Shown piece after piece: positions 25,621-25,674 of a stretch of 64,000 nucleotides of DNA. Below the pieces are notes generated by a model. That model was not told the DNA's origin. It did no database searches and saw only the letters and a program-made list of their open reading frames with translations. The DNA is from Halovivax ruber XH-70 (GTDB lineage Archaea > Halobacteriota > Halobacteria > Halobacteriales > Natrialbaceae): positions 496,001-560,000 of the forward strand of contig NC_019964.1 of NCBI RefSeq assembly GCF_000328525.1. The letters are read 5' to 3'. Each line of letters opens with the position of its first letter. The first letter of the stretch is position 1. The position numbers and the translations under genes were made by a program.

Positions 25621-25674
25621 TCTCTCTCTCTCTCTCTCTCTCTCTCTCTCTCTCTCTCTCTCTCTCTCTCTCTC
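25621..25674. repeat. Perfect (TC)27 dinucleotide microsatellite
   Basis: 54 bp of uninterrupted TC repeats on the plus strand, immediately followed by TTTTTA. It lies 94 bp after the copA stop and 203 bp before the copZ start. The U-rich transcript would be compatible with archaeal-type termination of copA. Tracts of this length are rare in prokaryotic chromosomes. Confidence 0.99.

Follow-up and report, generated by a model that had tools for sequence, protein, structure and literature searches.

The window analysed here, a 64,000-bp stretch of the Halovivax ruber XH-70 genome (G000:C1:496001-560000, on a contig of 3,223,876 bp), carries copA (22867..25527, + strand), encoding a P-type copper ATPase, and downstream of it a gene for a copZ-like HMA metallochaperone (25877..26074, +). 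Both assignments are supported by Pfam and NCBIfam, the copZ-like protein scoring 82.5 against the CopZ model NF047957 and thus falling slightly below the cut-off of 85. The neighbourhood further includes genes for an AsnC-type HTH/TRASH regulator (22191-22781) near copA and a DUF302 protein (26174-26587) near copZ. Between copA and copZ, a perfect alternating TC tract was found at 25621..25675 (+), composed of (TC)27 (25621-25674) and the first T of a T5 run (25675..25679, +), exactly the sequence that an earlier sequence-only reading had described. The tract starts 93 bp after the copA stop (25527) and ends 201 bp before the copZ start (25877), so that its placement past copA and before copZ also holds. 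Overlapping matches to (TC)7 numbered 28 in the window and 0 in 100 dinucleotide-preserving shuffles; the tract is, like a microsatellite, a perfect head-to-tail array of a short unit far above chance. It is also a perfect homopurine-homopyrimidine mirror repeat and could therefore possibly form a triplex, triplex motifs in bacteria being the subject of PMC4666352. Just past the tract, at 25714-25755, lies an 18-bp direct repeat (AACACTTCGATCGGCACG, 2.3 copies), present in apparently about one copy in the sister species, as judged from an alignment gap. Elsewhere in the window, a 49-bp tandem duplication (30264-30372, 90% matches) covers the end of a gene at 28969-30309 whose product, judged by eye, has the look of a calcineurin-type phosphoesterase.

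The copA-copZ tract was not special to its locus, being one of about 20 similar repeats scattered over the chromosome. The window itself contains a second, 27-bp TC tract of the same polarity (54792..54818, +), located between two leftward genes and followed by GAAG. The H. ruber chromosome (G000) holds 19 tracts of at least 16 bp (8+7 T-started, 2+2 C-started), the congener G002 holds 29 (17+7 T-started, 4+1 C-started), and two further members of the genus, G003 and G004, hold 4 and 5 in all. Together with nine tracts from the sister species H. asiaticus (G001, assembled in about 20 contigs), those of G000 and G002 make up a set of 57 in G000 (19), G002 (29) and G001 (9); none of these lay inside a gene or reading frame called by a simple codon-usage script, and three of them abut the end of a called gene with an overlap of 1-2 bp. 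When one genome per species was compared, T-started tracts of at least 16 bp numbered 15 in G000, 24 in G002 and 7 in G001, with at most three per genome outside the genus; across the 392 genomes sampled from the order, 40 contained such a tract. The description of the repeat as exceptional is thus apt for the order but not for H. ruber itself, with its 19 tracts. A scan for (TC)16GAT in a contig database that may leave out G000 and near genomes returned 43 stretches, six of them in H. asiaticus and the rest spread among bacterial entries, no assembly having more than three. No title or abstract on replication-polarised TC tracts in haloarchaea was found among the matches listed from the open-licence PMC literature.

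The length of the tracts was found to change between species. At the copA-copZ locus, (TC)27 in H. ruber corresponds to (TC)5 followed by T4 in the sister species, with matching flanks. Tracts were present in both species at four of the eight H. ruber loci with both flanks alignable, with lengths of 52/49, 28/40, 24/38 and 58/42 bp (G000/G001); at all four the right flank was conserved up to the edge of the tract; to the left of the tract, two of the four have an unrelated block (about 10 bp; about 76 vs 98 bp). Furthermore, the H. ruber tract at 1,295 kb has no counterpart tract in the sister species, and the tract at 288 kb of G001:C21 has none in H. ruber. Copy number thus differs between relatives within the same flanks, as it does in microsatellites, and the suggestion that the repeat is prone to slippage is supported on the scale of species. 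In these alignments, the H. ruber tracts of L043-L045, L049-L052, L055 (two) and L057 had no partner in the G001 stretches, the second tract of L053 aligned over one flank only, and L039 and the tract at 54792 of the window aligned only away from the tract; on the G001 side, L089, L090, L092 and L200 had no partner and L087 aligned over one flank.

The orientation of the tracts was compared with the expected direction of replication, taking the best Cdc6_lid match of each genome as origin and its antipode as terminus. All 57 tracts of the four single-contig Halovivax genomes (19 in G000, 29 in G002, 4 in G003 and 5 in G004; the contig-level G001 was left out) read TC along the predicted travel of the fork from this main orc1/cdc6 locus. 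In G000, where the best match lies at 1.4 kb, 10/10 tracts at 0.45-1.33 Mb have TC on the + strand and 9/9 at 2.34-3.20 Mb on the - strand; the gene is annotated as an ORC1-type replication protein (NCBIfam), and the called genes around it resemble those in G002. In the latter genome, with its best match at 1,039 kb, the tracts are on - at 0.06-1.01 Mb (5), on + at 1.08-2.78 Mb (21) and on - at 3.04-3.66 Mb (3), one switch falling between 1,005k and 1,079k and thereby bracketing cdc6. Each of the two genomes shows exactly two strand switches (probability of at most two by chance 6.6e-4 for G000 and 1.5e-6 for G002), which fit the orc1/cdc6 gene and its near-antipode (1.61 Mb and 2.99 Mb, respectively), and the fit to a fixed origin plus antipode has P = 1.9e-6 and 1.9e-9. 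The smaller sets agree, with 4/4 tracts fitting in G003 (orc1/cdc6 gene at 1,526 kb; 1,098k on -, 2,061k, 2,145k and 2,173k on +) and 5/5 in G004 (gene at 513 kb; 1,553k and 1,998k on +, 181k, 3,033k and 3,615k on -). As expected of orientation-dependent repeats, occurrence follows the predicted fork direction in every one of these cases, and, as with KOPS, strand bias switches at the putative origin and terminus. Outside the genus, G020 has one run of 14 bp or more that contradicts the rule if the best orc1/cdc6 match marks the sole origin there.

Other orc1/cdc6 loci flanked on either side by tracts (at 735k in G000; 0.8k and 1,326k in G002) had no polarity switch around them, which suggests that they are not dominant origins; for the orc1/cdc6 gene at 237k in G000, the nearest tracts are too far off to tell. 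A separate observation concerns G000:C1:1327895-2344047, a region of 1.0 Mb around the expected terminus with no tract of at least 16 bp (P = 0.02 for such a gap); G002 differs in this respect.

Short reads handle long dinucleotide tracts poorly and the assembly of the sister species comprises about 20 contigs, which raises the question of a sequencing or assembly artefact. However, the separately deposited H. asiaticus assembly has tracts at orthologous sites with the same polarity and other lengths, and three further species obey the same polarity rule. An artefact is hence unlikely as far as the existence and polarity of the tracts are concerned and, as an account of the findings, has a negligible chance of being right, while the exact copy number rests on assembly.

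Gene orientation was considered as a cause of the polarity using the tracts of G000 and G002 together with 20-kb stretches, 20 per genome, sited away from known long tracts and with assumed arm labels near the terminus. Genes running with and against replication numbered 170:185 in G000 and 172:175 in G002 in these stretches, i.e. they were unbiased. The upstream gene was co-directional with the tract in 33/48 cases (p = 0.013) and the downstream gene in 22/48, and convergent gaps contained 18/48 tracts, compared to about 14% of intergenic bases. Such numbers, along with the T5 run that closes the copA-copZ tract, are what would be expected if transcription set the polarity and the tracts were U/C-rich 3' ends of transcripts, acting as terminators. 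Yet all 48 tracts fit replication, including 15 with an opposed upstream gene, eight of which have both neighbours opposed; the genes have no replication bias to pass on to the tracts, and avoidance of promoters would likewise fill convergent gaps. Gene orientation was accordingly rejected as the cause of the polarity, and an origin of the tracts as transcript ends is considered very unlikely, while the co-directional upstream genes (33/48) leave room for a transcriptional component. The same evidence bears on the proposal that the (TC)27 tract alters copA termination or the spacing of copA and copZ, which was not supported: the 57 such tracts in four genomes adjoin different genes, their polarity tracks replication and not the flanking genes, the sister species retains the T-run (as T4) despite an unexpanded repeat, and a search of 25500-25900 for a GC-rich stem-loop followed by a T-run, as in intrinsic terminators, gave no hit. 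No indication of a role in copper regulation was obtained in this analysis, and copA and copZ are regarded as context outside the mechanism proposed below.

Base composition was examined in the same samples. The leading intergenic strand has a GC skew of 0.001-0.002 in the G000 and G002 samples, an intergenic AT skew of -0.057 (G000) and -0.024 (G002), and a pyrimidine share of 0.511 and 0.505, respectively. The most skewed intergenic 3-mer is TCT (2256:1700), partly owing to one CRISPR-like array. Together with the AT skews, this favours the view that the tracts are simply the tail of a leading strand richer in T and C, but the measured pyrimidine shares are hardly able to yield the 48:0 polarity found at 16 bp or more genome-wide in G000 and G002, AC and TG runs stay short (at most 11 bp in four 400-kb samples), and the dinucleotide shuffles of the window contain no (TC)7. 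Compositional skew was thus thought insufficient, and skew alone is a highly improbable explanation. The polarity extends to short runs in the two tract-rich genomes, where the bias climbs with length: intergenic TC:AG runs on the leading strand of the G000 and G002 samples numbered 204:145 at 5 bp, 57:31 at 6, 35:8 at 7 and 17:4 at 8 bp or more. The short-run bias was weak in the tract-poor congener G004 (83:85, 28:19, 7:3 and 4:0 for the same classes, three of the last four runs being known tracts, as 3/20 stretches, L231, L237 and L240, were sited on these), and G014, from another genus, had no clear bias (46:45, 9:7, 2:2 and 2:0). The array mentioned above lies in L138 (G002:C1:450001-470000), where a 13-base core word occurs in 47 copies; its repeat, assembled from skewed 7-mers, is approximately GCTTCAACCCTACAAAGGTCCTTCTGGAAC. 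Most of the top 7-mers in the k-mer skew list fit this one array, and these were disregarded.

The tracts also possess a sharp right edge. C is the last base of 43 of the 57 tracts in G000, G001 and G002, and it is followed by G in 41 cases, GA in 34 and GAT in 23. The background frequency of GA after an intergenic TC whose next base is not T is 16%, and that of T after TCGA is 26% (P = 1.6e-19 for the GA edge and 3e-7 for T after GA). Among short runs (6-8 bp) on the leading strand that end in C, GA follows in 6/75. The GA edge is found in 5/5 tracts of G004 and 2/4 of G003, and one further G001 tract ends in T; for the genus as a whole, the edge (...TC|GA) occurs in 41/52 C-ended cases among 67 tracts, or 37/48 when each of the four loci common to G000 and G001 enters the count a single time. 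At ten tract loci fetched from other genera, GA followed in 1/9 C-ended cases. The copA-copZ tract, which runs into T5, is an exception without this edge, whereas the second tract of the window, at 54792, has it. In the flank letter counts of the 57 tracts, no shared sequence was found beyond GA(T) on the right, and no motif at the left edge; on this basis, a mobile element was rejected as the common source of the tracts. Some tracts do have a C/A-rich, G-poor stretch of low complexity immediately on their left (CACACA..., ACCCAC...; L043, L061, L065, L260), and one sample has arrays of the type CTCTCTCA. Methylation was rejected as the source of the edge, TCGA being absent from the available part of the text of PMC6471742. 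No clean precursor was found as the ancestral sequence of a tract with a GA edge, and the edge words on their own had no strand bias (TCGAT 452:418; TCTCGAT 194:182).

The GA edge, which plain slippage does not predict, is the most novel part of the findings, and two readings take it into account. The tracts could be a selected directional element of the chromosome, such as a translocase landmark or a site where the lagging strand preferentially starts, with a single polarity due to a one-way function similar to that of KOPS. The 57/57 polarity, the sharp one-sided GA/GAT edge and the retention of a tract in the sister species at 4/8 alignable loci would all be accounted for, but a genome has merely 4 to 29 copies, the lengths vary between species, TCTCGAT alone is unbiased, and there is no enrichment at the terminus in G000, given the gap at 1.33-2.34 Mb, though G002 tracts do reach the antipode. 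Such a selected element seems rather unlikely. In the second reading, the edge might be the point where synthesis of the lagging strand enters the tract, with the primase of Halovivax preferring to start at 5'-(TC)nGAT-3' on the lagging template (primer AUCGAGAG...); alternatively, GAT might be the site of re-priming for a leading strand stalled on (GA)n. Mis-registered priming would then lengthen the repeat, and the tracts would be fossil starts of Okazaki fragments or of re-priming, their polarity providing a map of fork direction with one dominant origin per chromosome, as suggested by the missing switches at 735k (G000) and at 0.8k and 1,326k (G002). This priming-site proposal is speculative and its odds are judged to be poor.

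Genes for mismatch repair were compared between Halovivax and other genera. The window encodes a canonical MutS (46261..49170, -; NCBIfam MutS model NF003810), the only MutS_I match of the H. ruber genome, and the MutL_C domain of the single mutL (40917..41351, -; G000:C1:536917-537351). One match to PF01624 (MutS_I) was found in 5/5 Halovivax genomes (E about 1e-26 to 1e-28), compared to two matches in 10/10 genomes from other genera (E about 1e-38 and 1e-28). Two such matches are the rule over the order, and what the five searched Halovivax genomes all lack is the stronger paralogue; its counterpart from other genera, sampled as two partial proteins, also passes NF003810. A single mutL was found in 20/20 genomes, so that loss of mutL was rejected as a cause. 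Among genomes outside the genus that were at least 90% complete and at most 5% contaminated, the stronger MutS, scored as missing if the best E was weaker than 1e-31, was missing in 14 (G274, G083, G091, G104, G115, G116, G129, G136, G143, G157, G170, G215, G225 and G361). Four of these (G104, G129, G143 and G170) contain one tract each, whereas 30/326 other genomes contain at least one (Fisher p = 0.04), a weak association. Absence of one of the two canonical MutS proteins thus perhaps helps TC tracts to grow in the genus, the relation being correlative, and it is not sufficient, since only four of the 14 other genomes without the stronger MutS have a tract and these lineages show no comparable expansion. 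Deletion of mutSL is described as raising the mutation rate of Haloferax volcanii (PMC7776575, citing unpublished data), while deletion of mutS or mutL did not produce a mutator in Halobacterium NRC-1 (PMC7776575, PMC9997560).

As all of them point along the expected travel of the DNA-copying machinery, the tracts have the appearance of a replication by-product in which the direction of copying is recorded, and not of a switch for copper genes. The reading we favour, with a probability of roughly 0.6, is that these are genus-wide intergenic TC microsatellites that arise and change in length by replication slippage, with growth to great length confined to a single polarity with respect to the fork. 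In the permitted polarity, with the main orc1/cdc6 locus as the presumed working origin, TC would be the nascent leading strand and the lagging-strand template, and GA the leading-strand template; slippage, and not selection, would produce the polarity. One possible route is that a tract of the opposite polarity, by placing (GA)n on the lagging template, folds up, contracts and disappears; in the other, the polymerase would stall at (GA)n in the leading template, and refilling of the gap out of register would produce an expansion. These two routes are indistinguishable with present data. We conjecture that the absence of one of the two MutS proteins lets short runs cross a threshold for growth. 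The archaeal polymerases PolB and PolD slip in vitro (PMC4134008), and GAA repeats in yeast stall forks only when located on the lagging template (PMC9296464). With a purified eukaryotic replisome, only (CG)n stalled among the dinucleotide repeats tried, and (GAA)n gave no robust stall in either orientation (PMC9296464). The GA edge, the weak short-run bias in G004, the tract-poor genomes without the stronger MutS, the remaining mutL and canonical MutS, the lack of a mutator in Halobacterium NRC-1, the excess of co-directional upstream genes and, if G020 has its sole origin at the best orc1/cdc6 match, the run in that genome speak against the slippage model.

The tracts share features with several known systems. 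They resemble dinucleotide microsatellites in being perfect, uninterrupted, intergenic and different in length in related species, but the Halovivax set is unusual for its one motif, its one polarity over the whole chromosome and its frequent one-sided GA edge. KOPS and Chi are short non-repetitive octamers present in many copies and recognised by known reader proteins; the tracts are likewise strongly skewed to one strand, with switches at the predicted origin and terminus, but are few, long, variable in length and without a known reader. The contingency repeats behind phase variation in bacteria are slippage-prone tracts near genes, as are the repeats described here, except that none of the examined Halovivax tracts lies within a called reading frame and no sign of switching was seen. 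GAA.TTC-type repeats are homopurine-homopyrimidine mirror repeats as well, and what becomes of them depends on the strand that serves as lagging template, as seen for stalling in yeast (PMC9296464); the Halovivax tracts differ as a natural, chromosome-wide pattern in an archaeon, with a dinucleotide unit and known from sequence alone.

If the slippage reading is true, a handful of long repeats would allow the direction of each replication arm to be read off with no need for an experiment. This would be of value in archaea with nearly flat base skews and several orc1/cdc6 genes, in which the number of working origins is open. Halovivax would in that case be a natural system for studying what restricts the growth of homopurine-homopyrimidine repeats to one polarity, and for asking whether dinucleotide repeats are guarded by one of the two MutS proteins of haloarchaea.
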